A stretch of DNA of 64,000 nt from Hallerella porci. Lineage in GTDB: Bacteria; Fibrobacterota; Fibrobacteria; Fibrobacterales; Fibrobacteraceae. This document shows, in pieces, positions 2,741-29,806 of the stretch. The notes below the pieces were generated by a model. The model was not told the DNA's origin. It ran no database searches and worked only from the letters and a program-made list of their open reading frames with translations. A program made the translations under genes and the position numbers. The DNA lies in assembly GCF_003148885.1 (NCBI RefSeq), contig NZ_QGHD01000007.1, positions 1 to 64,000 on the forward strand. Reading direction: 5' to 3'. Within the stretch, counting starts at the first letter, position 1. Each line of letters starts with the position of its first letter.

Positions 2741-3520
2741 CTTCCGCAAAATTGCATGGACCTGTTTTCAAAAACAAATGACCCTTTGCATTTGTGATTT
2801 GCCCAATTTCGCCCAACAAATATCCCACTTCAAAAGTGCAAAGCCCTGTTTCGCTCAACAAATATCCCACTTCAAAAGTGCAAAGCCCTGTTTCGCCCAA
2901 CAAATGTCCCACTTCAAAAGTGTAAAGCCCTGTTTCGCCCAACAAATGTCCCACTTCAAAAGTGCAAAGCCCTGTTTCGCTCAACAAATATCCCACTTCA
3001 AAAGTGCAAAGCCCTGTTTTGCCCAACAAATATCCCACTTCAAAAGTGCAAAGCCCTGTTTCGCTCAACAAATATCCCACTTCAAAAGTGCAAAGCCCTG
3101 TTTTGCCCAACAAATATCCCACTTCAAAAGTGCAAAGCCCTGTTTCGCTCAACAAATATCCCACTTCAAAAGTGCAAAGCCCTGTTTTGCCCAACAAATG
3201 CTCTTCGCAAAAGTGAATTGCCAGATTTGGTGGTAAAAACAGCCCTTTTCAAAAGTGAATAGCCAGATTTGGTAGTAAAAACAGCCCTTTTCAAAAGTGA
3301 ATAGCCAGATTTGGTAATAAAAATAGCCCTTCGCAAAAGTGAATTGCCTAATTTGGTAGTAAAAACAGCCCTTTTCAAAAGTGAATTGCCAGATTGGGTA
3401 ATAAAAATAGCCCTCTGCAATAATGAATAGCCTAATTGGGTAATAAAAATATCTCTCTGCAATAATGAATAGCCTGATTGGGTAATCAGAATATCATTTT
3501 GCAAAAGGGGATGAGCGTTT
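2741..3520. repeat. 42-bp tandem repeat array, two sub-families
   Basis: Nine near-identical units carry CACTTCAAAAGTG at 2826, 2868, 2910, 2952, 2994, 3036, 3078, 3120 and 3162, a strict 42-bp spacing. Two degenerate 42-bp units precede them (2741-2824). From 3201 the unit changes to a second family, starting at 3201, 3243, 3285, 3327, 3369, 3411, 3453 and 3495, still 42 bp long and sharing the CAAAAGTG core. The CACTT/AAGTG arms can form a small hairpin. The array fills the space between two divergent genes. Because 42 is a multiple of three, open frames exist on both strands. I see no spacers, so it is not CRISPR. Confidence 0.9.
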
Positions 3521-3658
3521 TGGAATGAGGTAACAGTTATCTTCACTTTTTAAACAAAAAATTACACAAATTTTTGTAACGATTGAATTTGTTTTACTTA
3601 CATTATTATCGGTGAGTGGATTTTGGGACAACACATCAACCATCCTATTGGAGGACAC

Positions 3659-4414
3659 ATGAGTCAAATCGAAAGTTACAAGTTAACTTACCTGAACAAC
3701 GCTGCACATTTTCTGTTTATGAAGGAGCTCCTTGCGCGCGCCCTTGCCGACGAAAATGTGAGCACCAAGTGCAAGGATCAAGTCGACGCTCTGCAAAAAA
3801 CGCTTAAGGCCGAAGACGATTGCTTTGCGACATCTTCGAAAAGCCTTGCGACAGACAAGATTACCCAGGCAGACAGCTTCCGCGACAAGCTTTATCTCGG
3901 CTACAAGAAGCTTGTCGAAGCCCATTTGGACGCTCCGATTCCAGAACTTGCAAACGCTGCAACGGTATTGAACCAGCATATCGTGGATTACAAAATCAAC
4001 GTTCGCGATCAAATTGACAAGGAAACGGGCTCCCTCGTAAACTTTATCCAGGATTTGGAAGGCTCGCACAAGGCGCATGTTGAAACTCTTAACCTTATGG
4101 CTATCGTAGAACGTCTGAAGCAGGCAAACGAAATGGTCCGCGAGTACACGAATACGCGCACCGACGAGCGCTCCGTCAAGACGGCGGGTGCGATGAAGCA
4201 GGCAAGGGTCGTCTGCGACAACGCCTACAGCAATTTGGTGCGTGTGGTTAACGCCCACATGATTCTCGAAGGGGACGCCGATTACGAAAATTTCGCAAGC
4301 TTCGTGAACACGCAAATCGCACAGCTCAAGATGAGCGCCCTCTATAAACGGAAGGGGAAAAGTGAAATTCAAATGGAAAACAATCAAAAGGTGGGGGAAG
4401 ATTTTAGAGCTTAG
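3659..4414 (+). CDS. DUF6261 family protein
   Basis: The product is a 251-residue soluble, largely helical protein. Its N-terminus (YKLTYLNNAAHFLFMKELLA) matches the opening pattern of the DUF6261 family, common in Bacteroidota and relatives and without known function. I chose the ATG at 3659 because a GGAGG lies at 3650-3654; an in-frame upstream codon at 3623 has no such site. There is no signal peptide or membrane segment. The 42-bp array lies directly upstream and mobile-element debris lies downstream, so it sits in an accessory region. Codon use is richer in GC than in its flanks. No function can be assigned. Confidence 0.75.
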   Translation: MSQIESYKLTYLNNAAHFLFMKELLARALADENVSTKCKDQVDALQKTLKAEDDCFATSSKSLATDKITQADSFRDKLYLGYKKLVEAHLDAPIPELANAATVLNQHIVDYKINVRDQIDKETGSLVNFIQDLEGSHKAHVETLNLMAIVERLKQANEMVREYTNTRTDERSVKTAGAMKQARVVCDNAYSNLVRVVNAHMILEGDADYENFASFVNTQIAQLKMSALYKRKGKSEIQMENNQKVGEDFRA

Positions 4415-4475
4415 AACTTAGAGTTTAGAGATTAGAGATTTCTAAGTTCAAAGCTCTTCGCTTTAAGATCTAAAA
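4405..4475. repeat. Dispersed TTAGAGC-type intergenic repeat, copy A
   Basis: This stretch of alternating TTAGA and TCTAAG words can fold on itself. Related copies lie at about 6755-6830, 21424-21490 and 21930-21990. It begins at the stop codon of the DUF6261 gene. Confidence 0.55.
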
Positions 4476-4499
4476 AAAGCGCGCCTACGGCGCATCGAA

Positions 4500-4632
4500 A
4501 ACCTGTGTTGAGCTCACCCCCAAACCATACATTTTTTCGAGGATGTTCTTGACCTTCTGCGTTGATACGCTATTCGATCGTTCGTAGGCGCTTGCTTTTA
4601 GGAACTGCTCGCACTCTAGCTTTTGCAAAACC
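4500..4632 (-). pseudogene. Remnant of an IS256-family transposase
   Basis: Read on the minus strand, this stretch keeps one open frame for about 43 codons. It contains KASAYERSNS followed at once by VSTQKVKNILEKMYGLGVSS. Both resemble conserved parts of IS256 (Mutator-like) transposases: the region around the YER motif, and the VSTRKV helix before the catalytic domain. In intact enzymes these are separated by tens of residues, so the middle seems to be deleted and the DDE domain is gone. There is no start codon or ribosome site. The 4415-4753 gap otherwise holds only a dispersed repeat and a terminator. Confidence 0.45.
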
Positions 4633-4668
4633 AAAAATAGACTGTAAAAGCTTCACTTTTTGTATTCT

Positions 4669-4691
4669 GGGCTCTAGCCGAGCCCTTTTTT
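4669..4691 (+). terminator. Rho-independent terminator
   Basis: Stem GGGCTC/GAGCCC (4669-4674 and 4680-4685) with a TAGCC loop, followed by six T. It faces the plus strand and precedes the gene at 4754. Confidence 0.6.
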
Positions 4692-4753
4692 ATGAATGAT
4701 TGATTTTACAGAATGAAATTTACATGTTCATCATTTCCAACAAAGGAATTCTT

Positions 4754-5521
4754 ATGGGAACACATGCAGCAATCGTCCGCCGATTGCCCGACAACACAAT
4801 TCAATACGGAAACATCATCAATGATGGTTTTCTAAGCTATGTAGGTATCATCTTGATGGTTTATTATGATTCCCCGAAATTGGTGGAACAATTATTTTCA
4901 CTGGGGCAGTTAGAAACTCTTGGTGCACCGGGAACAGAAAATAATCCAGCCTTGTTTGACACCGAATCAAAAACATATTGCACAAATAGATGGAAAGGGC
5001 ACCGTTCTCACAGAACTTGTGATTCTGAAATGGAAATCTGCCCAGAAGTTATGTTTACGGATTACTATTATTTTTACGACAATGAAGAATGGTTCTATGT
5101 AAAACCGGATTGTGGCTGGCAAAAGATTCCATTACATTATGTGCTAAACCGTTTATCGTATTTTTCAAAACATCCTAATGAATGTCCCCAAATAATGGGA
5201 AGAAACGAGCCCGATACTTGCGTTCGATATGAAATGGATATCGCTTATCTCAAGGAGATTCTCTTTGAATATCCTAAAGAAGACGCCGAATACAAGCAAC
5301 TGCTCGATGCAAGCGGAATCAACATCGAGGAAACATTTGAGGAACTACGAAAGACGAATTTTCCGCTTTACGAATTTCTTGAAAAACACCTTAATCTTGT
5401 GAATTATTTTGATCCGTGGAGCGTTTACATGGTTGGAGAATCGCACTTACCACCGTCAAAAGTCAAATTGCGAAAGAAATCGGAACAACATGTTGAAACA
5501 TATTTTTGGAATTTGAGCTAG
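4754..5521 (+). CDS. Hypothetical protein with MGTR-type N-terminus
   Basis: The product has 255 residues. The start MGTHAAIVRRL, followed by a short strand, NDGFLSYVGIILMVYYDSP and then LGQLETLG, follows the pattern of a widespread small family that begins MGTRS/A, has a Y-C-H-W-D-G-Y segment and continues LLEHY. The function of that family is unknown. Here the usual CHWDGY is replaced by IINDGF. I chose the ATG at 4754, which has AAAGGA at 4742-4747; an upstream in-frame ATG lies at 4724. There is no signal peptide. A hairpin terminator follows at 5545. It stands alone between mobile-element remnants, suggesting an acquired gene. Confidence 0.6.
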   Translation: MGTHAAIVRRLPDNTIQYGNIINDGFLSYVGIILMVYYDSPKLVEQLFSLGQLETLGAPGTENNPALFDTESKTYCTNRWKGHRSHRTCDSEMEICPEVMFTDYYYFYDNEEWFYVKPDCGWQKIPLHYVLNRLSYFSKHPNECPQIMGRNEPDTCVRYEMDIAYLKEILFEYPKEDAEYKQLLDASGINIEETFEELRKTNFPLYEFLEKHLNLVNYFDPWSVYMVGESHLPPSKVKLRKKSEQHVETYFWNLS

Positions 5522-5544
5522 GATGAAGTATGGGAAAAGGAAGT

Positions 5545-5571
5545 GCGGACTAAAAGTCCGCATTTTCTTTT
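5545..5571 (+). terminator. Rho-independent terminator
   Basis: Stem GCGGACT/AGTCCGC (5545-5551 and 5555-5561) with an AAA loop and a T-rich tail, directly after the gene ending at 5521. Confidence 0.75.
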
Positions 5572-5607
5572 CAATTGTGCATTGTTAATTGTTCATTATG
5601 CATTGTC
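5571..5607. repeat. Dispersed AATTGTGCATTG repeat, copy 1
   Basis: The words AATTGTGCATTGTTAATTG and TTATGCATTG lie between two convergent genes. The same words recur at about 6849-6890. Confidence 0.5.
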
Positions 5608-5620
5608 ATCAATTCCAACT

Positions 5621-5650
5621 AAAAAAGAACCGCTTTCGCGATTCTTTTTT
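5621..5650 (-). terminator. Rho-independent terminator
   Basis: On the minus strand the stem is GAATCGC/GCGGTTC with a GAAA loop (5627-5644), followed by a T run. It serves the Rpn gene. Confidence 0.65.
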
Positions 5651-6615
5651 TACAGTGCTTTGATTTCATCAATCGTGAGGCCGGTGACCTCTGCAATCGT
5701 TTCAACGGAAATGCCTTTTTTCAAAAAGCCTTTGGCGAGGGAACGCGTTTTAGCCATCATTCCTTTTTTCATTCCTTCTGCACGTCCTTCCTTACGCCCT
5801 TTGGAAATTCCTTCCGCAAGCGCCTCAGCCTTACCTGCAGCGAGCCTTTGGCGAAAGACATCGCCGGCGCTGACGAATCCGTACTTTTGTCCGATGCTTA
5901 CGAATGCCATATCTAACTCCTTGAGGATGCTTTCTCCCAAATACTCCTTCAAATATACACTAATTTTTTCGAGCAAGTTTTTCGCTTCATCGTAAGGAAT
6001 CTGCGTTAAGGCTTTTTGAAATTTGGGAAGAATTGCCAACAATTTTTTCCGGTTAAACGCATATTTCATTGCGGTTACACCCATTGCCGTTGCAACATCA
6101 TCGCAGCCGATGCAATCTTCGTCCGAAATCATTTTCATGTCGATGAAATGGCATTGAAAAGGCAACACAGGCTTAAAAAAGTAATCGGAATAATTTTTAC
6201 GCAAAAGTTTAAACGGGTCCCACGGACCTTTGCCGTTGTAAAAAATGAAAGCCCGCGTCGGCATTACGTCAACCAAATCGTTCTGCAATTTCATCACTTT
6301 ATTTACATAGCGAGAAATTTGGGCAAAGACGAATTTATCCGAGCCTGATTTATGCTCCAACAGAATCCCAACCACAGTGGGATGCCCTTTCGCAGCTTTC
6401 ACGCGAAAAGCTAAATCGGCTTCGCCCGTTTCGTCCACTTCGGAATACGAATCTGGAATCTGCTCGAGCGAATTCAAATTGATGGCTTTCAAAAACTCAG
6501 AGATTTCCGGTTTCTGCTTCGCACACAATTTCAACAACGCCCGCAAATGATTTTTATCGGCAAAAAGTCAGCGGAAGAAAGCGTCATGACTGCGACGAGA
6601 ATTTTTATTCGTCAT
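5650..6615 (-). pseudogene. Rpn-family PD-(D/E)XK nuclease/putative transposase with in-frame TGA
   Basis: Rpn proteins are recombination-promoting nucleases with a PD-(D/E)XK fold. The body shows EADLAFRVK, then GILLEHKSG (catalytic D and ExK), FYNGKGPWDP, and a charged helical C-terminus with GRKEGRAEGMKKG repeats. The true start is probably the ATG at 6613-6615, preceded by GGAG, giving MTNKNSRRSHDAFFR. The next codon is TGA (6568-6570) where relatives have Trp, and the frame then continues LFADKNHLRALL. The upstream residues match the family and stay in frame, so this is a single nonsense change (TGG to TGA) rather than a different start. The 298 residues after the stop could be made only from a non-ATG codon (TTG at 6546). 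Either a decayed gene or a sequencing error. Confidence 0.8.
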
Positions 6616-6754
6616 TTTGTTCTCCATTGGGAACGCCCCCAAAAAAGCAGATATGGACAATTTTCCCTATCTAAGAGTATAGACGCTTTAATCAGTAAAA
6701 ATGCATCAAAAGTAAAGAAGATTTTACTTAAAATCGAAAAAAGTGGAAAGAAAG

Positions 6755-6830
6755 ATCTTAGAACTTAGATTTTAGAGCTTAGAATTTCTAAGATCAAAGT
6801 TCTTAGCTCTAAGTTCTCAAAACCCCGCGC
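6755..6830. repeat. Dispersed TTAGAGC-type intergenic repeat, copy B
   Basis: It holds TTAGAGCTTAGA and TTCTTAGCTCTAAG, the two arms of the hairpin found most clearly at 21938-21979. It lies upstream of the Rpn gene. Confidence 0.6.
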
Positions 6831-6844
6831 GGCTTCGCCGCCAT

Positions 6845-6930
6845 TATTTCCAATTGTGCATTGTTAATTGTTAATTATGCATTGGATAATAATGCAGAAT
6901 TGATAATTCACAATTAACAATTATAAAGTT
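6845..6930. repeat. Dispersed AATTGTGCATTG repeat, copy 2, inverted
   Basis: AATTGTGCATTGTTAATTG and TAATTATGCATTG are followed by the near-complement ATGCAGAATTGATAATTCAC and AATTAACAATT, so the block is a long imperfect inverted repeat. The 6628-7041 gap holds this, copy B of the TTAGAGC repeat and a terminator, but no gene. Confidence 0.6.
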
Positions 6931-6980
6931 AGGCGCTTTGCGTCTACGGCGCACCAAGCTCTACACTCTTCATTCCTCAT

Positions 6981-7018
6981 AAAAAAAGTCGCACGGCAGA
7001 GCCGTACGACCTTTTTTG
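6981..7018 (-). terminator. Rho-independent terminator
   Basis: Stem GTCGCACGGC/GCCGTACGAC (6988-6997 and 7001-7010) with an AGA loop, flanked by A and T runs on both sides. It ends the esterase gene. Confidence 0.85.
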
Positions 7019-7041
7019 GTGGTGTGTTATGAACGGGAAAC

Positions 7042-8502
7042 TTAGGGCTTTGTAAATTGTTTGAGGAATTTCCAACCGATTTCTGCGCAGCCGGCGTCGT
7101 GGCCGTTTCCGCTGCAGCTTGCGCCGCCTTTATCGGTGCAAAGTCCGACTTGAACGCCGGCGCTGCAGTTTTCGTAAATGACGCAGCCGTTGCCTTGATC
7201 TTTGGGTTCGCCAGAACAACTGTTCATTTTCGCCCATTCTTTAAGGTTATTTTGTGCGCCAAGGAATGTAATCGGTTTTCCGGGAACCATCGAAGAATAA
7301 CCGCCTGCGTAAGGGACGACGCCGTCTTGAGAACCGCGGAAATTGAGAACGGAAATGGGGCGCGATGGTTTGCATTCGCCGGCATCGACGACTTCTTTTG
7401 CTAAATCAAAGGACGCGGGAGCCGTTGCGGCAAAGACATCTGCCATTTTACAAGCGACATAATTTGACATGCCGCCGCCCATCGAAAATCCTGCGGCGTA
7501 AATGCGCTTCGGATCGATGCACGCTTCGTTTTGAAGTTCTTGAATCAAGTGGCGGCTAAAGGTAATGTCATCGGCATCGGTGCAGCAAGGGCCGACATTC
7601 CACGCTTGCCCCATTCCGCCGGTTGCGCCGTCGGGATATGCGATAATTACGGCGTCAGAAAGGGTTGCTGCTTCGTAAGTTTTACTGCTTGCCCAACCTT
7701 GCGCGCTTCCCATAATCGGATGATAATCGACGAGGAGCGGGACCGCATTACTTCCGGTATAAGTATTCGGAACGTGAACAATGTATTTGCGGCCATCGAC
7801 TTCTTTCGTGTAATCGCCGGGCTTTAAAGTTTTCGTTGCGCAGTTGACCGGTTCATCGGGAATTTCTGAGGAAGATGAAATTTCTGCAGAAGAAGAACTG
7901 CTCTGACTTGAAGAAGAAATGGGCTTTGAACTTCCTTTGACTTTGAGAGTAATTTTTACGCCGACTTCTTCTTCGGCTTTCATTTGATACATCGTTTCTT
8001 CGAAGCCATCTTTTTTGAAGAAGAGAGAAGCGAGCGGATCACCGGCTTTTTTCAAAATGCCGCGATGGTCTAATGCATAAACGGAGCCTGCGCCATCGGC
8101 AGAAATTTTCAGAAAATTTTTGGAATGAGAAAGGCGACTTAAATCGAGATAGAGAGAACCGTTTGCGTTGAAAAATTCTTGCTGGAAAGTCACTTTGCCG
8201 AGCGCATCCAGCAGCGAAATTTTTAAAACGCGGACATTTACATTTTGTAATGTCGCAAATTTTCCGTCAAAGTGCACGCGCATTTCTTTGCGGGAAATCG
8301 CTTGGATAGAATTGGGATCGTTGGAAAGTTGGAAATTTCCAGAGGCATCGGATACGGCGGCAATTCCTGTATAATTAAAAGAAGAAATTTGAACATCGGG
8401 AATGCCTTCGCCCTGTTCTGTTATCACTTGCCCCGCAATGTTCCAACCGAGTGAAAGAGTTGCTCCGAAGAGCAAAATTAAAGTAGAAGTGGTGAATTTC
8501 AT
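7042..8502 (-). CDS. Secreted CE1-type esterase (feruloyl/acetylxylan esterase, PHB-depolymerase fold)
   Basis: The product has 486 residues. An N-terminal signal peptide is followed by a carboxypeptidase-regulatory-like beta domain (about 22-60), a second beta region, a poly-serine linker (about 191-212) and an alpha/beta-hydrolase domain. The nucleophile lies in GFSMGGG (Ser about 340), the acid probably in RGSQDG (Asp about 393) and the base in SGNGHDAG (His about 468). Family knowledge suggests it removes feruloyl or acetyl groups from xylan outside the cell. I chose the ATG at 8502 because GAGGAAA precedes it; an in-frame ATG at 8514 lacks such a site. Paired cysteines are frequent, as in exported enzymes. 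The exact substrate is not shown by sequence. Confidence 0.85.
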   Translation of the reverse strand: MKFTTSTLILLFGATLSLGWNIAGQVITEQGEGIPDVQISSFNYTGIAAVSDASGNFQLSNDPNSIQAISRKEMRVHFDGKFATLQNVNVRVLKISLLDALGKVTFQQEFFNANGSLYLDLSRLSHSKNFLKISADGAGSVYALDHRGILKKAGDPLASLFFKKDGFEETMYQMKAEEEVGVKITLKVKGSSKPISSSSQSSSSSAEISSSSEIPDEPVNCATKTLKPGDYTKEVDGRKYIVHVPNTYTGSNAVPLLVDYHPIMGSAQGWASSKTYEAATLSDAVIIAYPDGATGGMGQAWNVGPCCTDADDITFSRHLIQELQNEACIDPKRIYAAGFSMGGGMSNYVACKMADVFAATAPASFDLAKEVVDAGECKPSRPISVLNFRGSQDGVVPYAGGYSSMVPGKPITFLGAQNNLKEWAKMNSCSGEPKDQGNGCVIYENCSAGVQVGLCTDKGGASCSGNGHDAGCAEIGWKFLKQFTKP

Positions 8503-8603
8503 TTTTCCTCGCATTTGGATACTGATAAATTAAAAGCCCGAAGAAAAAATGCAAAGAGGGAAAAAGAAAAAAGCGTTGTTGATTTTACAACAAAAGTTTA
8601 AAC

Positions 8604-8632
8604 GAAAAAAGCCCGCCGATGGGCGAGCTTCT
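8604..8632 (-). terminator. Rho-independent terminator
   Basis: Stem AGCTCGCC/GGCGGGCT with an ATC-centred loop (8610-8629), followed on the minus strand by a T run. It ends the Ala/Pro-rich gene. Confidence 0.75.
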
Positions 8633-8652
8633 TTCATTTCTTTTTGACAAAA

Positions 8653-9324: not shown

Positions 9325-9478
9325 TATTTCCTCACTTGATAAAAAACATTTTTGGCAGATGAACCGCCAAGTGCAAGGAAAAAGATAACTCTTCAAACAG
9401 GAAAGTGGTAAATAATTTTTCTTAAAAAGGCGAAAATTCTATTTTCTAGATGATCATTTATTTGAATGAGAGGTTTCT

Positions 9479-19966: not shown

Positions 19967-21190
19967 ATGAAACTTCATTTGGGAATAAAATCGGCAGCGG
20001 TTGCTCTTTCTGCAGCATCGCTTTTGGCTTTCACGGCTTGCGGCGACGATAGCAATTCGTCAAAGCCCGATTCCAATTTGCCCGATGACCCGAGCTCTCG
20101 CGTCGAAGATATGGTTGTAGGGACGTTTGACAACCTTCCGGTTTGTAGCGGCACGTGCGAAGGCGTAACCGCGTATGTGAAGGATGAAAATCTTGCCTAC
20201 GTTTGCGTCAATGGTTCTTGGGTAAATGCTGTCGTTTCTTCTTCTAGCGAAGAAATTTCGTCATCGAGTTTTATTCCGAGCGATGTTGAAAATTCCAGCA
20301 GTTCTGTAAATGTTTCGTCATCAAGTGAAGAAGTAAAGTTCAGTAGCAGCGAAAAAGTTTCCTCGTCGAGTGAAATTTCAAGCAGCTCAATAAATTCCAG
20401 TAGCTCAGAAGAATCGAGTAGTTCCGTAAAATCTAGCAGCTCTATGAAAATGTCATCATCAAGTGGACAAATTTCCAGTTCAAGCATCAATACGAAACAG
20501 AGTTCTAGTTCAATAACAGGCTGGAGCTGGGATGTGCCGAAGGAAACTTTCTTGAATCCAAATATTGCTTACGGCACCATGACGGACAAACGCGATGGCA
20601 AAGTTTACAAGACGGTAAAAATCGGAGACCAGACTTGGATGGCGGAAAACTTGAATTATGCTGACAGCTCAACAACAAAGAGCTCGATTGGCAAGTCTTG
20701 GTGCTATAATAAAGATGATGAAAAATGCAAAGTAACTGGTCGCCTTTACACTTGGGCTGCTGCAATTGACTCTGTCAAGTTGGCTGCTGACGGACTTACT
20801 TGCGGATATGACGTAGAATGTGAAATGCCTAAAACGGTGCAGGGCATTTGCCCTGAAGGCTGGCACCTGCCGAGTAATGCTGAATGGAATACTTTGTTCG
20901 ATGCAGTGGGTGGGAGCTTTACGGCAGGCAAGATTCTCAAGTCTAGTACTGGTTGGTATGACTACGATGGAAAAAGTGGTAACGGAACAGACGCCTTTGG
21001 TTTGTCCGCGCTCCCCGCGGGCTACAGGTACTACAATGGCTCCTTCGGCTACGCAGGCTTCACCGCTTTCTTCTGGTCTAGTACCGAGAACAGTAGCTAC
21101 AACGCCTACGGCATGCGCTTGTTCCACGACAGCGAGAACGCGAAGCTGGACGGCTACTACAAGGACTGCGCGTTTTCTATCGTTGCCTAA
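19967..21190 (+). CDS. Lipoprotein with Fibrobacter major paralogous domain (TIGR02145), C-terminal frameshift
   Basis: The product has 407 residues. The lipobox LLAFTAC puts the lipid Cys at 25. A cysteine module (VCSGTCEG to YVCVNGSW) and a long poly-serine linker follow. The C-terminal domain then starts with MTDKRDGKVYKTVKIGDQTW, the hallmark of this hugely expanded Fibrobacter family, and carries CPEGWHLPSNAEW and FFWSSTENSS. It should be exported and surface-bound; its ligand is unknown. The product ends FSIVA, while the family normally ends F-S-[VI]-R-C. One extra base near 21181 would restore SIRCLKN, so a one-base deletion is likely. From about 21000 the codons turn GC-rich, unlike the 5' part. 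Confidence 0.85.
   Translation: MKLHLGIKSAAVALSAASLLAFTACGDDSNSSKPDSNLPDDPSSRVEDMVVGTFDNLPVCSGTCEGVTAYVKDENLAYVCVNGSWVNAVVSSSSEEISSSSFIPSDVENSSSSVNVSSSSEEVKFSSSEKVSSSSEISSSSINSSSSEESSSSVKSSSSMKMSSSSGQISSSSINTKQSSSSITGWSWDVPKETFLNPNIAYGTMTDKRDGKVYKTVKIGDQTWMAENLNYADSSTTKSSIGKSWCYNKDDEKCKVTGRLYTWAAAIDSVKLAADGLTCGYDVECEMPKTVQGICPEGWHLPSNAEWNTLFDAVGGSFTAGKILKSSTGWYDYDGKSGNGTDAFGLSALPAGYRYYNGSFGYAGFTAFFWSSTENSSYNAYGMRLFHDSENAKLDGYYKDCAFSIVA
21000..21190 (+). other. Candidate hypervariable C-terminal segment (DGR-like variable region)
   Basis: From about 21000 to the stop, nearly all exposed positions are Y, N, G, S, F, H or D, encoded by codons ending in C. The base composition changes sharply from the preceding sequence. 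The fold family is used as a retroelement-diversified ligand-binding domain elsewhere. No reverse transcriptase or template copy is in the window. Confidence 0.3.
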
Positions 21191-21423: not shown

Positions 21424-21490
21424 TTTAAAACTTAGTGCTTAGTATTTCTAAGATCAAAGTTCTCCACTCTAAGTTCTCAAAACCCGGCGC
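21424..21490. repeat. Dispersed TTAGAGC-type intergenic repeat, copy C
   Basis: It shares ATTTCTAAGATCAAAGTTCT and CTCTAAGTTCTCAAAACCC with copy B, but the left arm is diverged (TTAGTGCTTAG). Confidence 0.55.
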
Positions 21491-21520
21491 GCCATCATCT
21501 ACATTCCTCATTTAAAAAGT

Positions 21521-21880
21521 CTTCCCGCAGCGTTGCAAGAACGAATCTGACGTGTTAAATGGCTTGCCGCAGCGTTGCAAGAACGAATTTGACATGTTAA
21601 ATGCCTTCCCGCAGCGTTGCATGGACGAATTTGACATGTTAAATGCCTTCCCGCAGCGTTGCATGAACGAATTTGTCATGTTAAATGGCTTGCCGCAGCG
21701 TTGCATGGACGAATTTGACATGTTAAATGGCTTGCCGCAGCGTTGCATAGACGAATTTGACATGTTAAATGGCTTGCTGCAGCGTTGCATAGACGAATTT
21801 GACATGTTAAATGGCTTGCTGCAGCGTTGCATGGACGAATTTGACATGTTAAATGCCTTCCCGCAACGTTGCAAGAGAAA
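21521..21880. repeat. 42-bp tandem repeat array, second locus
   Basis: Units start at 21521, 21563, 21605, 21647, 21689, 21731, 21773, 21815 and a partial one at 21857, so the spacing is exactly 42 bp throughout. Units differ at a few positions only (CTTCCC/CTTGCC/CTTGCTG at the start; CAAGAA/CATGGA/CATAGA in the middle). Each carries ATTTGACATGTTAAAT, a 16-base palindrome with one mismatched pair. The sequence is unrelated to the array at 2741 although the period is identical. It lies between convergent genes. Confidence 0.9.
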
Positions 21881-21929
21881 AAATGAGGAATTAGGAATGT
21901 TATAATGGCGCGACTTTGTCGCGCGCTAT

Positions 21930-21990
21930 GCAAGATTTTAGAGCTTAGAGATTTCTAAGTTCAAAGTTCTAAGCTCTAAGTTCTTCAAAC
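21930..21990. repeat. Dispersed TTAGAGC-type intergenic repeat, copy D (best palindrome)
   Basis: TTAGAGCTTAGA at 21938-21949 is perfectly complementary to TCTAAGCTCTAA at 21968-21979. The 18 bases between them would form the loop. Confidence 0.7.
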
Positions 21991-22010
21991 TCTCCCTCCT
22001 CATTTCTCAA

Positions 22011-22040: not shown

Positions 22041-22042
22041 TC

Positions 22043-23548
22043 TTAGTTTTTCTTTGCGTCTATTAAGTTTTGGAAGTATTGGATAAAGCTTAAAGCGCCG
22101 ACGGCTAAGAAGCCGACTGCGTAGAGGGCGAGGAAAGGCCCGATGATAAATTTCTGGGCGCCGATGTAGGCGATAAGACCGAGAACGCAGTAAACGCCGA
22201 CGGCGATTTCTAAGAGAGCTAAGAAGGGGAATTTTTGACGGAAGTGAGAATATTTCTTTCCGCCGGTTTTCGGCGTGCGGACGAAGACTCCTTGCTTGCC
22301 AAAGACCGCCGAGAACCATGCGCGGGTGTTGCTAATCGCAATGCCTACGCCCATCGCCATCAGAACGGGGAGAGAAAGCATCCGCGTTTTCCAACCAGTA
22401 TAACCGGAGCAACGTTGCGCAACAAAGTAAAGAGTCGAAGGCGCAATCGCCGCGAGGAAGATAAACGCAAAGCCAATCGAGAAAAGCCAAGTCGGGAGAT
22501 TTGCAACCGGTTCAAACCAAGCGAGAAGCGGATAAGCGCAGAGCGCTGTAAAAAGCATACACGGGTGAATGGAATAATGAGTCGTGTGAAGGAAGGCACC
22601 GATTTTTTTGCGGAGCGGCACTTTTGCTTTGAAGACGAGCGGCAAATCTTTCATCGCGGTCTGGATGGAGCCCTTTGCCCAACGGAATTGCTGCGCCTTA
22701 AATGCGTTAATATCATCGGGAAGTTCTGCGGGGACAATCACATCGAAGACGAATTTCATTTTCCAACCGGCGAGCTGACTCCGATAAGAAAGGTCCATAT
22801 CTTCGGTTAATGTATCGCCTTCCCAGCCACCTGCATCGAGAATCGCTTGCTTGCGCCACACGCCTGCGGTGCCGTTAAAGTTCATAAAGAGGTCGCCCCA
22901 GCTGCGGGCCGATTGTTCTACCACAAAGTGACCGTCGATACCAATCGATTGCGCCAAAGTCAAACCGGATTCGGTGCGGTTCAAATGTCCCCAACGACCT
23001 TGCACAAGACCGATGGAAGAATCGATGACCATATATGGAACGGTTTTCAACAAGAAGTCTTTCTGCGGGACGAAGTCAGCATCGAAAATGGCGAGGAATT
23101 CACCCTTTGCGACTTCCATCCCTTCTTTGAGTGCGCCCGCCTTAAAATCTTTGCGGTTTGTGCGGTGAATGAGTTTAATGTCGTAACCTTCGGCTTGCTT
23201 TTCTTCGACTTTGCGCTTTGTTACTTCGTAGCAGTCGTCGGTCGAATCGTCGAGGACTTGAATTTCGTGTTTGTCTTTCGGATAATCGATGGCGCAGACC
23301 GCATCAATTAAGCGTTCCACGCAGTTTGCTTCATTGAAAACCGGAAGCTGCGTCGTGACCATCGGCAGTTCGTCCATCTTGTGGTCGCGGTAGAATTGGA
23401 GCAAGTTCTTGCGGTCGGCGAGGCGGACGCGGCGGCTGTTCTTGAGGAAGAGATAGATGCTCCAGTAGCAGTTGAATCCGTAGACGACAAGCCCGATTCC
23501 GGCGATGACGTACACAACAAACAGGATATCCAGTAAATATTGAGCCAT
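22043..23548 (-). CDS. Membrane glycosyltransferase family 2, cellulose-synthase-like
   Basis: The product has 501 residues. An N-terminal helix (residues 5-30) precedes a cytoplasmic GT2 domain. That domain has PVFNEANCVERL, VLDDSTDD, the metal-binding DADFVP, TEDMDLSYR (acceptor/base region) and QQFRWAKGS (QxxRW). Four to six C-terminal helices follow. This D-D-TED-QxxRW layout is that of processive beta-glycan synthases (cellulose synthase, mannan synthase CslA). It should take nucleotide-sugar in the cytoplasm and push a polymer through the membrane. The polymer cannot be named, and no PilZ domain or other polymer-export gene is adjacent. The start at 23548 has a plausible upstream AAAGG. 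Confidence 0.85.
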   Translation of the reverse strand: MAQYLLDILFVVYVIAGIGLVVYGFNCYWSIYLFLKNSRRVRLADRKNLLQFYRDHKMDELPMVTTQLPVFNEANCVERLIDAVCAIDYPKDKHEIQVLDDSTDDCYEVTKRKVEEKQAEGYDIKLIHRTNRKDFKAGALKEGMEVAKGEFLAIFDADFVPQKDFLLKTVPYMVIDSSIGLVQGRWGHLNRTESGLTLAQSIGIDGHFVVEQSARSWGDLFMNFNGTAGVWRKQAILDAGGWEGDTLTEDMDLSYRSQLAGWKMKFVFDVIVPAELPDDINAFKAQQFRWAKGSIQTAMKDLPLVFKAKVPLRKKIGAFLHTTHYSIHPCMLFTALCAYPLLAWFEPVANLPTWLFSIGFAFIFLAAIAPSTLYFVAQRCSGYTGWKTRMLSLPVLMAMGVGIAISNTRAWFSAVFGKQGVFVRTPKTGGKKYSHFRQKFPFLALLEIAVGVYCVLGLIAYIGAQKFIIGPFLALYAVGFLAVGALSFIQYFQNLIDAKKN

Positions 23549-23640
23549 GGTTAAACCTTTTGCATTTTAGATGCTTGGCGCCAAATATAGAATTTCGCAG
23601 TCGATATTGCTATATTCCTTCTGGATTTAATGACAAAAAT

Positions 23641-24189
23641 ATGACACAAAATTCCATGGAAAAGTCGCCGTTAGAAAGATGGCTCAGCGCAAATCAAGAT
23701 AGCCCGAATTTGGACAATTCTCTGCGGCTTTTGCTCGGGCACGCTTTCGTCGGCATTTTCCGCAAAACGCATCCGGATTTTGCCGTTTTTTCGCCAGAAA
23801 AGGCACTTTCTTGGGTAGAACGCCTCCCGAAAAACGCTTTTCCGTTTGATATTGGCGATTGGATTGCAAAACCTTCGGCGCATGCGCACGATTTGGTGCA
23901 TTTTTGCGAAAACGCTAACGCATTTCAATTCCCGCCGACGGTGGATTTTTCGAAGTGGACTTCGGGAGTTGTCGATTTACGCGGCGTACGTTGCCCGATG
24001 GGATCGGTGCGGGCGCGTCTTGTTCTCTCGGGGATGGAAGCGGGCGAAGAAATCACTCTCTTCGTCGATAACGGCGAACCGATTGAAAATATTCCGCGGG
24101 TCATGTTAGAAGACGGAAATCACATCGTTTCTCGAACAAGAGAAGAAAATTATTGGAAATTGACGGTGCAGAAAAATTCTGCGGACTAA
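23641..24189 (+). CDS. TusA-like sulfurtransferase-domain protein with N-terminal extension
   Basis: The product has 182 residues. The C-terminal 75 residues (VVDLRGVRCPMGSVRARLVL and on) match the TusA/SirA fold, with the sulfur-carrying Cys at 118. The usual CPxP is CPMG here, so the second Pro is lost. The N-terminal 105 residues have no domain I recognise and include HAFVGIFRKTHPDF and a Trp-rich helix. TusA proteins relay persulfide sulfur for tRNA thiolation or other sulfur transfers; whether this protein does so is uncertain given the altered motif. No clear ribosome site precedes the ATG at 23641; ATG 23656 is an alternative. It is divergent from the glycosyltransferase. Confidence 0.7.
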   Translation: MTQNSMEKSPLERWLSANQDSPNLDNSLRLLLGHAFVGIFRKTHPDFAVFSPEKALSWVERLPKNAFPFDIGDWIAKPSAHAHDLVHFCENANAFQFPPTVDFSKWTSGVVDLRGVRCPMGSVRARLVLSGMEAGEEITLFVDNGEPIENIPRVMLEDGNHIVSRTREENYWKLTVQKNSAD

Positions 24190-24301
24190 AAATTATTTGC
24201 CAAGATGCCCTTCGCATTGTGATTTATCTCACATTTTGAATTGAACTAGGCAGCTTGGTCTAGGGTTGCTTTTTTCCCTAAAAATAAAGTAGTTTAGTAA
24301 T

Positions 24302-24901
24302 GTGACTCACAGAATTCAAATCATTAGCGATGAATTGATGGGGGCCGATGCCGAAGCTGCAGAACTTTTTTCGGAAATCGTCCTCTGCGAAAATCCGACA
24401 CGTCCTGTGCAATTTGCAATTTCTTCGTCGGTGCGTTATCCGCTATCGACGGTTCTTTCTCGGGCGCCCTACGATATTTTCGGAAAACTCGCAGAACGCA
24501 TTGTTCTCGGGCTTGGCCTTCACGAATTGCGGACGGTAACCGATGCGGATGCGGTCTTTGCGTCCTATAAATTATTACTCGATGAAATTTTATCGAAGAC
24601 TGCGTCGGTGCTTTATCTGATTACGATTCCGAAGAAAGCGTTCCCCGAAGGCGAAACGGAAGTTTCGAAGTTTAACGAAAAAGTCCGCGGACTCGATGAC
24701 GGCGACCGCGTTCATGTTTTGGATTTTGATTCTCACGTCGAAAATTTTGAAAAAGCTCAACTGCTCCGCGGAAAATTTGCGCGCAGTTTATATGATTCAA
24801 ATCATAATCCCACATCGCTTTGTCATACGCTGTTGGGACTGTTTTTATCTCAGCGAATTTTTAATTCAAAAAAGGAGTTGGAAAATGGATTTCAGCGATA
24901 A
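24302..24901 (+). CDS. SGNH-hydrolase-like protein, unknown
   Basis: The product has 199 residues and no signal peptide. The pattern of a hydrophobic strand followed by GLGLHEL, a helix starting TDADAVFASYKLLLDEI, the strand SVLYLITIPK, FNEKVRGL and a last segment with LYDSNHNPT resembles the Rossmann-like core of SGNH/GDSL hydrolases. The usual GDS start is not visible, so catalysis is doubtful. The start is taken as GTG at 24302; ATG at 24338 is possible. The 3' end overlaps the next gene by 17 bases, so the two are probably coupled. Confidence 0.5.
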   Translation: MTHRIQIISDELMGADAEAAELFSEIVLCENPTRPVQFAISSSVRYPLSTVLSRAPYDIFGKLAERIVLGLGLHELRTVTDADAVFASYKLLLDEILSKTASVLYLITIPKKAFPEGETEVSKFNEKVRGLDDGDRVHVLDFDSHVENFEKAQLLRGKFARSLYDSNHNPTSLCHTLLGLFLSQRIFNSKKELENGFQR

Positions 24902-25214
24902 ATTTTATGCAAAAAATGCGGCATCTGCTAGAGCGTGGGCAGAAGCAGAACCGAAAAAGCACGAAGTGCGCGAACGCAAACATAGCGAACCGAAAATGGG
25001 AATTTGCGAAAAGTGCAAAAAAGAAGCGCTCGTGCGTCCGCATCGTTCTCGCGAAACCGACATCAAGGATGGCGCAGCGAGTTACGGCGTCGTCGTGCAT
25101 TATTACTGCGAAGATTGTTACCCGCAGAGCCGTCGCAATACGCCGACAGAACCGCCGATGAGCGCGAAGCAGGTGAAGAATCTTCTCCGTGGTGCAAAGA
25201 AAAATTTGCGATAA
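24885..25214 (+). CDS. Small protein with two CxxC pairs (zinc-ribbon-like)
   Basis: The product has 109 residues. A basic and Glu-rich N-terminal half leads to CEKCKKEALVRPH and, 30 residues on, YYCEDCYPQS, which together give a four-cysteine zinc-binding pattern. It ends in a helix AKQVKNLLRGAKKNLR. I chose the ATG at 24885, since AAAGGAGTT lies just upstream. It overlaps the end of the preceding gene and is followed by a terminator at 25219. I do not recognise the family; a nucleic-acid or protein-binding role is possible. Confidence 0.7.
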   Translation: MDFSDKFYAKNAASARAWAEAEPKKHEVRERKHSEPKMGICEKCKKEALVRPHRSRETDIKDGAASYGVVVHYYCEDCYPQSRRNTPTEPPMSAKQVKNLLRGAKKNLR

Positions 25215-25218
25215 AAAA

Positions 25219-25246
25219 ATCTGCGCTCGACGGCGCAGATTTTTTA
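25219..25246. terminator. Bidirectional terminator between convergent genes
   Basis: Stem ATCTGCGC/GCGCAGAT (25219-25226, 25233-25240) with a TCGACG loop, and A and T runs on the two sides. Confidence 0.85.
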
Positions 25247-26302
25247 TACTTCAAGAAGTTTGAACATTCGATTTCGCCCTAAGGCGCCTGGATGTTCGGC
25301 GATTACATCTTTAGCGAAGGCTTGCATTAAAAGAGCCTCCGCTTTTTCTTTTTCGATGCCGCGGCTCATCAAATAGAAAATGGATTCTTCATCGAGAGAG
25401 CCGACGGTGTTGCCGTGCGAACAGGCGACATCATCGTGGTAAATTTTTAAGGTCGGCTTCACGCAAATTTTCGAATCGTCCGAGAGAAGCATCGTGTTGA
25501 TGAGTTCCGAAGAATCGGTGCCGGGGCAATCTAAGCCCGCGGTAACGCCGCCGTCATAGCTCATGTAAGAATGATCCGAAAGTAAATTCCGCACAAATTG
25601 ATGGCTTTTGCAATTTGCTGCGTTGTGATACACGCGGACGAATCCGTTTTCACTCGCTGAATTTCCGAGCTGATTCAATTCGCGAAACGCAAATTCTGCG
25701 CCTTCGCCATTTAAGAAAGCCGAAACGCTTACGCGGCGCGTGGAATCGGTGCGGTTCAAATCCAAAATATTGACGCGGGAATTTTTTTCTTGGTGAATGC
25801 GGATACTGCGAAATTTGAGTTCGCCCGCGTGCGATTCTTCGGTCGAGAAAAGTTCAAGCTCTGCGCCTTCGTCGACGAAAAAGTCGAGGCGTTCGGCAGA
25901 AATTTCGCGGACGATTTTATTTTCCAAAATTTCGAGAGAAGCTTTGGCGTTTTTCCCTAAGCGGAAAACGGTGTGCGAAAATTCATCGTGGGCTTTGAGA
26001 ATGCCGGTTTCGTTTGCGCCTTCGGGAATTTCTTTGACGAAAGATTTTGCGCCGAGGGCGAGCGGGAGGAGCGCCGAAATATCGGTTTCTTTTTCGATTT
26101 GAAAATCGGCAGCAGAAAAATTGGATTCGGCGAGGCGTTCTACATTGCGAGCATCGCCGGCGTCGATTTTAAAATGAGCGTCATCGATAAAGGTGAGCCG
26201 TGAAATTTTCGAAAGAAGTGAAGTGGGGAAGTAGCTCCAATCTTCGGTTCGACGCGTCGGGAGTCCGAGGGCGCGGATTTTTCCGAGTGCTTCTTGTTGC
26301 AT
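25244..26302 (-). CDS. sufD: Fe-S cluster assembly protein SufD
   Basis: The product has 352 residues. SufD joins SufB and SufC in the SufBC2D scaffold that builds iron-sulfur clusters in the cytoplasm. The right-handed beta-helix core holds SYMSYDGGVTAGLDCPGTDS, then KPTLKIYHDDVACSHGNTVG, the region with the conserved His and Cys. The C-terminal helix domain reads YLMSRGIEKEKAEALLMQAF. The length is slightly below the usual 400 or so, mainly at the N-terminus. The ATG overlaps the sufC stop (TAATG), so translation is coupled. No sufB gene is next to this pair. Confidence 0.9.
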   Translation of the reverse strand: MQQEALGKIRALGLPTRRTEDWSYFPTSLLSKISRLTFIDDAHFKIDAGDARNVERLAESNFSAADFQIEKETDISALLPLALGAKSFVKEIPEGANETGILKAHDEFSHTVFRLGKNAKASLEILENKIVREISAERLDFFVDEGAELELFSTEESHAGELKFRSIRIHQEKNSRVNILDLNRTDSTRRVSVSAFLNGEGAEFAFRELNQLGNSASENGFVRVYHNAANCKSHQFVRNLLSDHSYMSYDGGVTAGLDCPGTDSSELINTMLLSDDSKICVKPTLKIYHDDVACSHGNTVGSLDEESIFYLMSRGIEKEKAEALLMQAFAKDVIAEHPGALGRNRMFKLLEV

Positions 26303-27051
26303 TAGACATTTCCCTCGAGATTTTCGTAGCCTTCTTTTTCCAATTTCTTGGCGAGTTCGGGGCCGCCGGAAAGGATGATTTTTCCGTGGATGAGAACGTG
26401 GACAAAATCGGGCTTGACGTAATCCAAAAGGCGTTCGTAATGAGTCACCAAAATCACGGCGCGGTTTTGATTGTGCAAATGATTGATGCCGTTCGAAACG
26501 ATGCGGAGCGCATCGATGTCAAGGCCAGAATCGGTTTCGTCGAGGAATGCGTATTTCGGAAGAAGCATCGCCATTTGCAAAATTTCGTTGCGCTTCTTTT
26601 CGCCGCCCGAAAATCCGTCGTTTAATCCGCGAGTGCGGTAACGTTCATCCATTTCCAAAAGTTGCATCGCTTCGTTTAAGCGGTCGTTAAATTCGGCGTC
26701 GGAAATCGGACCCATTTTTAAGTAAGCGCGTTTCGAATCGACTGCCATCCGTAAAAATTCCACATTCGGAACTCCCGGAATTTCAATCGGATATTGCGTG
26801 CTTGCAAAAAATCCTTCGTTTGCGCGGGAAGCGGGATCGAGTTCGAGTAAATTTTTGCCGTCCATTTCGACTGAGCCCGAATCGACTTTGTAAGCGGGAT
26901 GCCCGCTGATTACTTTGGCGAGAGTGCTTTTTCCAGAACCGTTCAATCCCATAATGGCGTGGATTTCGCCGGGTTTGACTTCGAGGTTAATGCCTTTGAG
27001 GATTGGAGTGCCGTCGAGAAGACTGGCTTTGAGATTTTGGATTGAAAGCAT
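26302..27051 (-). CDS. sufC: Fe-S cluster assembly ATPase SufC
   Basis: The product is a 249-residue soluble ABC-type ATPase that drives the SufBCD scaffold. Walker A is GLNGSGKST, the signature is FSGGEKKRNEI, Walker B ends in YAFLDETDSGLD (the SufC-typical ETDSGLD) and the switch His is in VTHYERLL. The length is standard. It starts 12 bases downstream of dnaG, which suggests that dnaG, sufC and sufD share a transcript. The stop overlaps the sufD start. Confidence 0.95.
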   Translation of the reverse strand: MLSIQNLKASLLDGTPILKGINLEVKPGEIHAIMGLNGSGKSTLAKVISGHPAYKVDSGSVEMDGKNLLELDPASRANEGFFASTQYPIEIPGVPNVEFLRMAVDSKRAYLKMGPISDAEFNDRLNEAMQLLEMDERYRTRGLNDGFSGGEKKRNEILQMAMLLPKYAFLDETDSGLDIDALRIVSNGINHLHNQNRAVILVTHYERLLDYVKPDFVHVLIHGKIILSGGPELAKKLEKEGYENLEGNV

Positions 27052-27063
27052 AATGACTCCAGG

Positions 27064-28950
27064 TTATAATTTGCCGCTAAACTCGATGAGTTTTTCGCGG
27101 TAATCAAGTAAGTCTTTGAAAAATGTAGCATCTTGCGAAACATCTTCGCTTTCTCGGACGCGGGCGCGAATGGTTTTGCTCGCAAATGCGTGGAGGGCGA
27201 GGCGCAGTTGCACGAGTTCTGCGGTCATCGGGCGCGATTTGAGCGAATCGCGGAAACGTTCTGCCGTGCGAATTTCAAGCTCGGCTAAGGATTCTAAAAA
27301 TTCTTTTTGCGCGGCGGCAGGTTCCCAAGTTTCTTCGCCAAAAGATTCGAGAATTTGTGCGGGGAGCGGCGAAAGCGCATCGTGCAAACGCATCAAATTG
27401 ATTTCTTTATTTTCGGTGTATTCGGCGAGGGCAGTTCCCAAAAGTTCGTCCAAAAGTTCGGACGCAAATAAACTGACTCCGGAACTTGCAAAATCCAAAT
27501 CGAAGAAAACGCTTGCGGGTTCCCAAAGGCTCGGCGATGCGATGATGAGACTAACAAATCGCAGTTCCATTTTCGGAATCGCTTGCCACGGCACTTGTTC
27601 TTCGGCGGGAATTTCGGCGGGGAGAGAGTTTCCGTCGTCGTAAAATTTTCGTTTTTCTTTTTCGGGTTGGATGCCGGCAAAGTTTGCTTCGGAACCAAAT
27701 CGTTCGGCGACTAATCGCAGATATTGATTTTGCAGTTCGCGGTCGCGGATGTGGATTAAAATCGATTTAATATGCGTGACGAATGCGGCGCGATCTTCGA
27801 CGGTTTCGGTCGGCGTAATGCGGGCGAGATAATCGAACCAATCTTCGGCGTGAGAAAGTTCGCTACGAAAATCGTCTGCGGCAGAAGCTCCGTGTTCGTT
27901 TACAAAATTATCGGGGTCAATTTTTTCGCCGTTCGGACGAGAGAGGGCGACTATTTTCGGAATGATTCCTTGCGGGAGCACAATTTCAATCGTGCGATTT
28001 GTCGCTTTGCGACCTGCTTCATCGCCATCAAAAACGAGATACGCGGACTTTGTATAACGCGAAAGAATTTCTGCGTGCTTCTCGGTGAGAGCGGTTCCCG
28101 AAACGGCGACGACATTTTTTACGCCGGCTTGGTAAAGGCTGATGAGATCGAAGTAACCTTCGACGAGGATGACGGATCCCGCTTTCGGAATTTCGCTTTT
28201 GGATTTGGAAAGTCCGTAGAGAATCTCGCCTTTTTTATAAAGCGCAGTGTCCGGACTATTTAAATATTTCGGCGCTTTCTTTTCTTTGTCTAAAATGCGC
28301 CCGCCAAATGCGACGACTTTGCCCGAGAGATTTTCGATGGCGAACATCAATCGGTCGCGGAATTTATCGGCGATGCCTCCGTTTTCGCGTTCAATCGCAA
28401 GCCCCGCTTCGACGAGCTGCCGCGGAGAAAATCCGTGCTTTGCCGCGTAACTTAAAAATCCTTCGCGTCCATCGGGAGCGTAACCGACTTTAAAAAAGTG
28501 CCGCGTATCTTCGGTCAAGTGCCTCGATGCAATGTAACCGAGAGCTTTTTCGCTTTTGGGCAACTGCTCGACGAACCAATCCGCCGCAAGATCATTGAGC
28601 TCGCGGACAAGGGTGCGCTCTTCGGTGACTTCGGGCGATTCGGGTTTCCCGAGAACTGGGAGCACAAAATTTGTGGCATTGGCGACCCATTCGACGGCGG
28701 CTTTAAAGTCGAGCTTTTCGTGCTCCATGATGAATTTGAAAACGTCCCCGCCTGCGCCACAAGCGAAGCATTTATAAATTCCCATTTGAGGATTTACGTT
28801 CATTGAGGGCGAGTGATCGTTATGAAACGGGCAACGCCCCACAAAGCGCCCTGCGCCAGAACGCTTTAACGGCACAAATTGCTGAATAATATCCGCAATA
28901 TTGGCTTGCTGTTTTAACTCTTGAATGGTTTCATCCGAATAAAATGCCAT
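27064..28950 (-). CDS. dnaG: DNA primase DnaG
   Basis: The product has 628 residues. It makes RNA primers at the replication fork. The zinc-binding domain uses Cys40, His43, Cys61 and Cys64, matching E. coli spacing. The RNA-polymerase domain holds RDRLMFAIENLSGKVVAFGGR, and the TOPRIM motifs VEGYFD and VFDGDEAGRKA follow. The C-terminal part should contact DnaB. In many bacteria dnaG sits with rpsU and rpoD; here sufCD follow instead. No clear terminator separates it from sufC. Confidence 0.95.
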   Translation of the reverse strand: MAFYSDETIQELKQQANIADIIQQFVPLKRSGAGRFVGRCPFHNDHSPSMNVNPQMGIYKCFACGAGGDVFKFIMEHEKLDFKAAVEWVANATNFVLPVLGKPESPEVTEERTLVRELNDLAADWFVEQLPKSEKALGYIASRHLTEDTRHFFKVGYAPDGREGFLSYAAKHGFSPRQLVEAGLAIERENGGIADKFRDRLMFAIENLSGKVVAFGGRILDKEKKAPKYLNSPDTALYKKGEILYGLSKSKSEIPKAGSVILVEGYFDLISLYQAGVKNVVAVSGTALTEKHAEILSRYTKSAYLVFDGDEAGRKATNRTIEIVLPQGIIPKIVALSRPNGEKIDPDNFVNEHGASAADDFRSELSHAEDWFDYLARITPTETVEDRAAFVTHIKSILIHIRDRELQNQYLRLVAERFGSEANFAGIQPEKEKRKFYDDGNSLPAEIPAEEQVPWQAIPKMELRFVSLIIASPSLWEPASVFFDLDFASSGVSLFASELLDELLGTALAEYTENKEINLMRLHDALSPLPAQILESFGEETWEPAAAQKEFLESLAELEIRTAERFRDSLKSRPMTAELVQLRLALHAFASKTIRARVRESEDVSQDATFFKDLLDYREKLIEFSGKL

Positions 28951-29071
28951 CGCGCGGCAAAAATAAATAATTTAATGAGGAGTTAGGATTGAGGAATGAG
29001 AAGTGTAGATGATGGCGCGCGGGGGATGCGAAATAGTGATCAGTGGTTAGTTGTCAGTTGTTGGAAACTGC

Positions 29072-29287
29072 GTGTCATTCTGAGCGAAGCCGTAGGCGCT
29101 GCCGTGTCATCCTGAGTGGAGCCGTAGGCGAAGCGATATATGAAACTTGGAACTTTAGTTCCTTAGTTGAATTAAGCCCTTTGGGGTAGGATCTAGCATT
29201 TTCTATTGAGTCCAAAAAAGGACTTCTTCTAATTCACAAACCAAGTGCTAGATTCTTCGCTCCATTACATTACGCTCAGAATGACAC
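29072..29287. mobile_element. MITE-like element with 15-bp terminal inverted repeats, copy 2
   Basis: GTGTCATTCTGAGCG (29072-29086) and its exact complement CGCTCAGAATGACAC (29273-29287) bound a 216-bp block without a gene. Inside are a 32-bp near-duplication of the left end (29071-29134) and the 66-bp block identical to 19019-19084. Non-autonomous miniature elements have this layout. No target duplication could be defined with confidence. The 28951-29944 gap holds this and the 42-bp array. Confidence 0.65.
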
Positions 29288-29308
29288 TACTAGATTTCCA
29301 GTGCTAAC

Positions 29309-29806
29309 ATTTCCCCCAGGCGATGAACCCGCTGGGATTTCAGTGATAACATTTCCCGGAGGAAATTTGTCCGCTAGAATTTGGCAATGGAATTTCCTGG
29401 AGGAAATTTGCCCGCTAGATTTTTGGTAATGGCATTTCCCAGGGGAAATATGTTCGCCGAATTTCTGGCAATGAGATTTCCCGGGGGAAATATGTTCGCC
29501 GGATTTTTGGCAAAGAGATTTCCCGGGGGAAATATGTTCGCTGAATTTCTGGCAATGGCATTTCCCGGGGGAAATTTGCCCGCCGGATTTCTGGAAATGA
29601 CATTTCCTGCGGGAAATTTGCCCGCTAGAATTTGGCAATGGCATTTCCCGGGGGAAATTTGCCCGCTAGATTTTTGGCAATGACATTTCCCGGAGGAAAT
29701 ATGTTCGCTGAATTTTTGGCAATGAAATTTCCCAGGGGAAATAAGTTCGCCGGATTTTTGAAAATGAGATTTCCCGGGGGAAATTTGCCCGCTAGAATTT
29801 AAAAGG
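29309..29806. repeat. 42-bp tandem repeat array, third locus
   Basis: Twelve units start at 29309, 29351, 29392, 29434, 29476, 29518, 29560, 29602, 29643, 29685, 29727 and 29769; spacing is 42 bp, with two of 41. Each begins with a 16-base palindrome of the type ATTTCCCGGGGGAAAT. The inner bases vary (CCC-GGG, CCT-AGG, CCT-GGG) and mostly preserve pairing. The rest of the unit alternates between TTTGCCCGCTAG and TATGTTCGCTG/CCG forms. It lies downstream of a MITE-like element and upstream of the dnaG start. Confidence 0.9.

Follow-up and report, generated by a model that had tools for sequence, protein, structure and literature searches.

Three tandem arrays and their flanks

The window, a 64,000-nucleotide stretch of the Hallerella porci genome (2.85 Mb in 78 contigs), contains three arrays, each lying between genes: array 1 between divergent, array 2 between convergent and array 3 between tandemly oriented neighbors (Table 1). 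With units longer than 9 bp repeated head-to-tail in several copies, the arrays resemble minisatellites or VNTRs. The first-pass annotation had placed period-42 repeats at 2741-3520, 21521-21880 and 29309-29806, which both TRF and cyclic alignment bore out; TRF called array 3 at 29328-29800 with a period of 42, and cyclic alignment extended it to 29307-29813 and moved the start of array 2 to 21509 (21509-21876). The two diverged subfamilies of array 1, A0 and A1, do have the same length as claimed, sharing one 42-bp register. The description of the period as "exact" is too strict for array 3, which includes some 41-bp units (4% indels by TRF), and for relatives elsewhere with units of 41 or 43 bp.

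Table 1. Coordinates of arrays, flanking modules and neighboring genes (window positions unless a locus is named)
Feature	Location	Strand	Description
Array 1, family A	2746..3523	+	18.5 units in a single continuous 42-bp register; extent from cyclic alignment
Array 1, subfamily A0	2807-3199		TRF period 42
Array 1, subfamily A1	3203-3507		TRF period 42; register common with A0
Array 1 neighbor	589-2589	-	MmeI-like DNA methyltransferase; divergent pair
Array 1 neighbor	about 3659-4414	+	DUF6261; divergent pair
7-bp module	6753-6922
Array 2 neighbor	19967-21190	+	FISUMP-domain protein; convergent pair
Heptamer-period module	21435..21490	+	TTAGAAC/TTCTAAG type, with ccggcgcgccatcatctacatt flank; left of array 2
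Array 2, family B	21521..21876	+	8.5 units of 42 bp, 0 indels; TRF
Heptamer-period module	21930..21990	+	TTAGAGC...TTCTAAG; right of array 2
Array 2 neighbor	22043-23548	-	glycosyltransferase-like; convergent pair
Array 3 neighbor	27064-28950	-	DnaG-like primase gene; array lies upstream of it; tandem pair
Inverted-repeat, MITE-like intergenic element	29105..29286	+	GTCATCCTGAG...GGATCTAGCA ... TGCTAGATTC...CTCAGAATGAC; adjoins array 3
Array 3, family C	29307..29813	+	~12 units, mostly 42 bp, few of 41 bp; ATTTCCC..GGGAAAT core
Array 3 neighbor	29945-32377	-	array lies downstream of it; tandem pair
7-bp module	L022:6684-6748
7-bp module	L174:578-617
Intergenic arrays of sister G005 (41, 38 and 52 bp)	L168:11242-11511; L180:1938-2124; L174:472-556; L167:502-616; L178:1900-2438

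Across the genome we distinguished families A (including A0 and A1), B, C, D (43 bp), E with E2 (41 bp), G, F and H (44-45 bp). Array edges at different loci had the same unit phase and were bordered by the same modules (heptamer repeats, catcatctacattt, CATTCTGAGCG..GATCTAGCA): the ccggcgcgccatcatctacatt flank of array 2 recurs with B units at other loci, and the element flanking array 3 also accompanies C-arrays at L041, L072 and L214. Composites with just 1.7-1.9 B units exist as well. The shared edge phase and flanks, together with these composites of fewer than two units, thus point to amplification inside dispersed composite elements.

The MITE-like element has arms of the form CATTCTGAG/CATCCTGAG...GATCTAGCA and lies beside both C- and E-arrays (also at L031:18045-18255 and at L214), while sister genome G005 carries an analogous CGTCATTGCGAG...GCAATCC element adjoining arrays of its own. 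The FISUMP-domain protein beside array 2 fits a Fibrobacter host. Among the other neighboring genes, the MmeI-like methyltransferase corresponds to PF20473/PF20464 and the DUF6261 gene to PF19775; a gene similar to the latter is found directly downstream of a 41-bp array (C41, below) on contig C4 (L212).

Distribution of repeat periods in the genome

We surveyed repeat periods in 864 kb, consisting of the window and 40 stretches of 20 kb (a 30% sample of the genome), counting a locus where identity was at least 70% over 100 bp at a given lag. Sixteen loci were found at lag 42, two each at 41 and 43, and one at 44; other lags had single loci each, except the multiple at 84. Four of the 40 stretches had been chosen for family-A hits, which inflates array density and does not explain the preference for 41-43 bp. 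Non-coding tandem periods of 25-100 bp other than these were almost absent from the sample, and instead of many other periods with 42 not enriched, the scan gave a sharp spike at 41-43 bp. Families A, B and C each occupy about ten loci in the genome; contigs C8 and C26 each have a C-array at one terminus, so that copy numbers in the assembly may be underestimates.

Period-42 arrays in genuine long ORFs (L009:1208, L017:12855, L021 and L048) were set aside. Two of them encode 14-residue repeats, at L017:12855-13133 (FATLELDLTEELED) and L009:1208-1401 (DTLKIRDTLTLNKT). Longer tandem repeats were seen at L030:8115-9597 (207 bp, seven copies, a multiple of three) and L025:6532-6976 (140 bp, three copies).

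Relationships among families

The window arrays had been described as unrelated, a view that sequence comparison overturned. Profile comparison linked A with A0, A1 and B at z=7-11, and the A and B consensus sequences are identical without gaps at 27 of 42 positions, a value equaled by none of 1500 shuffles; on these alignments A and B are clearly homologous. Because the direct comparison of the A and C consensus was borderline (22/42, P=0.026; profile z=4.1), we link these two mainly through a bridging family, I. In a search of the genus, sequence models of A (R1) and C (R2) both matched C19:45.2 kb, C1:228.9 kb and C28:17.7 kb, where the family I unit, AAAATGTTATCTCCGGAGTTCCGATGAACACATTTTGCGGGT, recurs at a spacing of about 42 bp. 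Its profile aligned with that of A over 25 bp (z=12) and, without gaps, with that of C over 33 bp (z=4.6). Between A and I, one block is alike at 23 of 25 positions and the other at 4 of 17, with identical total length, as if a block had been replaced and the unit length left unchanged.

Among the remaining families, C41, a 41-bp subfamily of C with 11.4 rigid units at C4:55.8 kb, matched C at z=7. The links C41-H, B-D and I-G reached z=3-4 with 136 pairs tested, and the ties of D, G and H are thus weak. For families F and E2 and the 41-bp arrays of the sister species G005, consensus and profile comparison yielded no demonstrable kinship to A, B or C. The three window families are, by the resemblances above, distant relatives in a single superfamily. 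The premise that three independent sequences had converged on 42 bp fails on this shared ancestry (A-B, A-I-C), which means that the length was largely inherited and not reinvented three times.

Unit length and turnover

Within arrays, we counted 463 substitutions and 1 indel in A, 64 and 0 in B, and 293 and 8 in C, and the spacing between units was 42 bp in 183 of 190 cases. Between arrays, gap openings per mismatch were 0.021 for A, 0 for B and 0.013 for C, against 0.12 for other non-coding repeats of the same genome compared by self-BLAST. Computed from the distinct substitution types in each array, the expected number of indels was about 29 for A (1 seen), 27 for C (8 seen) and 3.4 for B (0 seen). 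When each family was given one count, A alone stayed clearly significant (P=1e-4, indicative only, as are all the indel P values, since repeat units are not independent). The annotation's formula of a constant length with changing sequence therefore describes a real property: indels are depleted relative to the genome's other non-coding repeats, and blocks appear to be swapped at fixed length. As rigid relatives of 41 and 43 bp also exist, the rule is that the founder length is kept, not that it equals exactly 42.

Units of A have an identity of 0.857 at distance 1, dropping to 0.717 at distance 12 (0.723 between loci), and higher-order repeats of 84, 126 and 168 bp are present. Neighbors being most alike, and the higher-order repeats, indicate that units were duplicated locally, singly or several at a time.

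Palindromes, helical phase and coding potential

Each unit had been said to hold one palindrome. It was mainly C, D, G and one A array whose hairpins clearly exceeded chance, and the remainder of the claim mostly dissolves into chance-level pairing: compared with shuffled units, the best hairpin gave P=0.27 for A0 and P=0.33 for B, versus P=0.04 for C in the window. Among 62 unique C units, stem covariation was not found: changes on one side of the stem numbered 45 (37, and a further 8 G-T), whereas only 4 were paired double changes. We rejected RNA hairpins as a candidate, the stems being near chance in most families and without covariation. No Rfam match at gathering score was found in the window.

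Phasing of A-tracts was weak in A, B and E (P about 0.02-0.05) and not detected in C, D, G or H. This inconsistency, along with the rigid 41- and 43-bp relatives, weakens the suggestion that 42 bp matters as four helical turns, and curvature in helical phase was likewise dropped. Conserved sub-blocks are present in A (CAAAAG, ATTT and AAA) and in C (ATTTCCC/GGGAAAT). The parallel suggestion that 14-codon units keep reading frames open is contradicted by abundant stops and by substitutions lacking a coding pattern. In A, where several arrays have stops in every frame and the synonymous fraction is at the random level, coding was rejected; the largest synonymous excess in C falls in a frame with 69 stops. 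Array sites showed no preference for gene orientation (13 tandem, 6 convergent and 5 divergent, versus 161, 57 and 77 in the genome).

Related species and mobile elements

No match to A or B was found in 40 relatives, and C had just two marginal ones there (E about 3-5e-4). Model searches of five sister species gave nothing convincing (best E 0.005), and the dnaG and glycosyltransferase loci of these five are present without arrays; in L162, a weak lag-42 signal was seen downstream, in which TRF did not recover a tandem repeat. Sister genome G002 had no such arrays in the 400 kb sampled. By one of two genes (dnaG and glycosyltransferase) the closest sister is G005, which carries arrays of its own, with periods of 41, 41, 41, 38, 38, 46 and 52 bp and no convincing relation to A, B or C.

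Spread from phages, plasmids or viruses was rejected, as A, B and C matched nothing in phages, plasmids and viral contigs. The exact pattern of A or C had no match in named genomes, a search set from which close records are possibly absent. For Y1 transposases, the host genome had a single match, apparently frameshifted and away from the arrays, which is fewer than in sisters lacking these arrays, and its reverse transcriptase count was unremarkable; with neither enriched, a Y1/RAYT transposase or reverse transcriptase was discarded as the mobilizer. The searchable literature yielded no description of a Fibrobacter repeat family of this kind.

Origin of the arrays and of their common length

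We favor, with a probability of about 0.65, the reading that these arrays form a largely neutral or selfish superfamily of non-coding minisatellites, confined to this species within the set of genomes compared, related by common descent and unusually stable in unit length; that they are largely neutral or selfish is what we consider most likely from the observations above. The ancestor would have been a unit of roughly 42 bp that resided inside composite intergenic repeat elements and was amplified locally by tandem duplication, with entire units added by slippage or by unequal exchange, and copies of the unit-bearing composites would have reached many intergenic positions. The units would then have diverged into A, B, C, I and further families by substitution and by block replacement at constant length, with indel-bearing units presumably failing to amplify or vanishing in turnover. 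Two findings count against this reading: the indel depletion in A goes beyond neutral drift, and nearly the same length recurs, with no demonstrable kinship, in F, in E2 and in the 41-bp arrays of the sister species. The latter is what a molecular ruler would produce, in which the replication or recombination machinery prefers to duplicate segments of about 41-43 bp regardless of sequence and so generates separate satellites of equal length. Besides F, E and E2, at 41-42 bp and without proven homology, such a ruler would account for the three 41-bp and two 38-bp arrays of G005, which do not match the host families, and for the near absence of other non-coding periods of 25-100 bp; for heptamer repeats, an explanation by polymerase footprint has been put forward (cited in PMC4692102). 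We nevertheless regard the ruler as unlikely, given that common ancestry of the main families already explains the length, that G002 lacks such arrays in its sampled 400 kb, and that G005 also has arrays of 46 and 52 bp. Some weight, though well short of even odds, goes to a wider proposal, in which a putative process (DNA-binding architecture or a duplication ruler) may keep the intergenic satellite units of the lineage within 41-43 bp even as their sequence is replaced without restraint, the conserved trait being length itself. It draws on the unrelated arrays of the sister species also keeping 41 bp, and a lineage-wide preference retains weight because G005 has arrays of its own without convincing kinship to A, B or C.

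The depletion of indels in A and B could also reflect selected spacing, with each unit a putative site for a nucleoid or supercoiling protein, sites four helical turns apart and indels purged by selection. Conserved sub-blocks in A and C and the weak phasing of A, B and E are consistent with this, and spacing of binding sites is possible; the full account seems quite improbable in view of the rigid relatives at 41 bp (C41, 11 units, and E) and 43 bp (D), the unphased families C, D, G and H, the indifference to gene context, and the array-free loci of sister species with the same genes. Dispersed copies, short hairpins in some families and inverted repeats in the composite flanks recall REP/BIME-like mobile hairpins moved by a Y1 (RAYT-type) transposase, a very remote prospect that the lone frameshifted transposase match, the missing stem covariation and the ordinary reverse transcriptase count have already largely refuted. 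That the arrays encode 14-residue repeat peptides, which would account for a length divisible by three as well as for the missing indels, is scarcely credible: long open frames do cross the arrays on both strands, and genuine coding repeats of this length occur elsewhere in the genome, but the stops and random-level synonymous fraction of A and the existence of 41- and 43-bp members contradict it.

Comparison with known bacterial repeats

To our knowledge, eukaryote-like satellite superfamilies, with many arrays, diverged families, higher-order repeats, restriction to a species and fast turnover, are rare in bacterial genomes. Having both an excess of substitutions over indels and a fixed-length block replacement, the superfamily favored above offers a case in which to test whether the length of a bacterial repeat unit can be constrained independently of sequence. 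It shares intergenic tandem repeats, local duplication and higher-order repeats with bacterial VNTR/MIRU minisatellites, from which it differs in that almost every non-coding array in the genome belongs to one length class and most belong to one superfamily. REP, BIME and REPIN sequences are similarly extragenic and dispersed, with some palindromic units and sometimes short tandem arrays, whereas here we found no matching transposase, no stem covariation and up to 21 head-to-tail units. Regular spacing is also a feature of CRISPRs, but the present arrays have no unique spacers and the entire 42-bp unit repeats.

Long tandemly repeated repetitive (LTRR) sequences are known from Anabaena/Nostoc sp. 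PCC 7120 (Masepohl et al. 1996, cited in PMC2408588). Both they and the present arrays are intergenic, non-coding and dispersed tandem arrays with units of about 40 bp, some of them hairpin-forming. They are set apart by phylum and unit length (41-43 bp here versus 37 bp), as well as by the several diverged families of one length and the measured indel depletion found here. Heptanucleotide repeats (STRR; GGGAATC in Xanthomonas/Nostoc, PMC4692102) are comparable in being intergenic and in having a constant period with differing sequences; their period is 7 rather than 42, and the array units here are not visibly built of heptamers, although heptamer modules do flank the 42-bp arrays. At least four kinds of these exact 7-bp-period intergenic modules (TTAGTGA, TTAGAAC, AATTAGG/AATGAGA and AATTGAT types) were seen flanking arrays, and related heptamers are present in G005.
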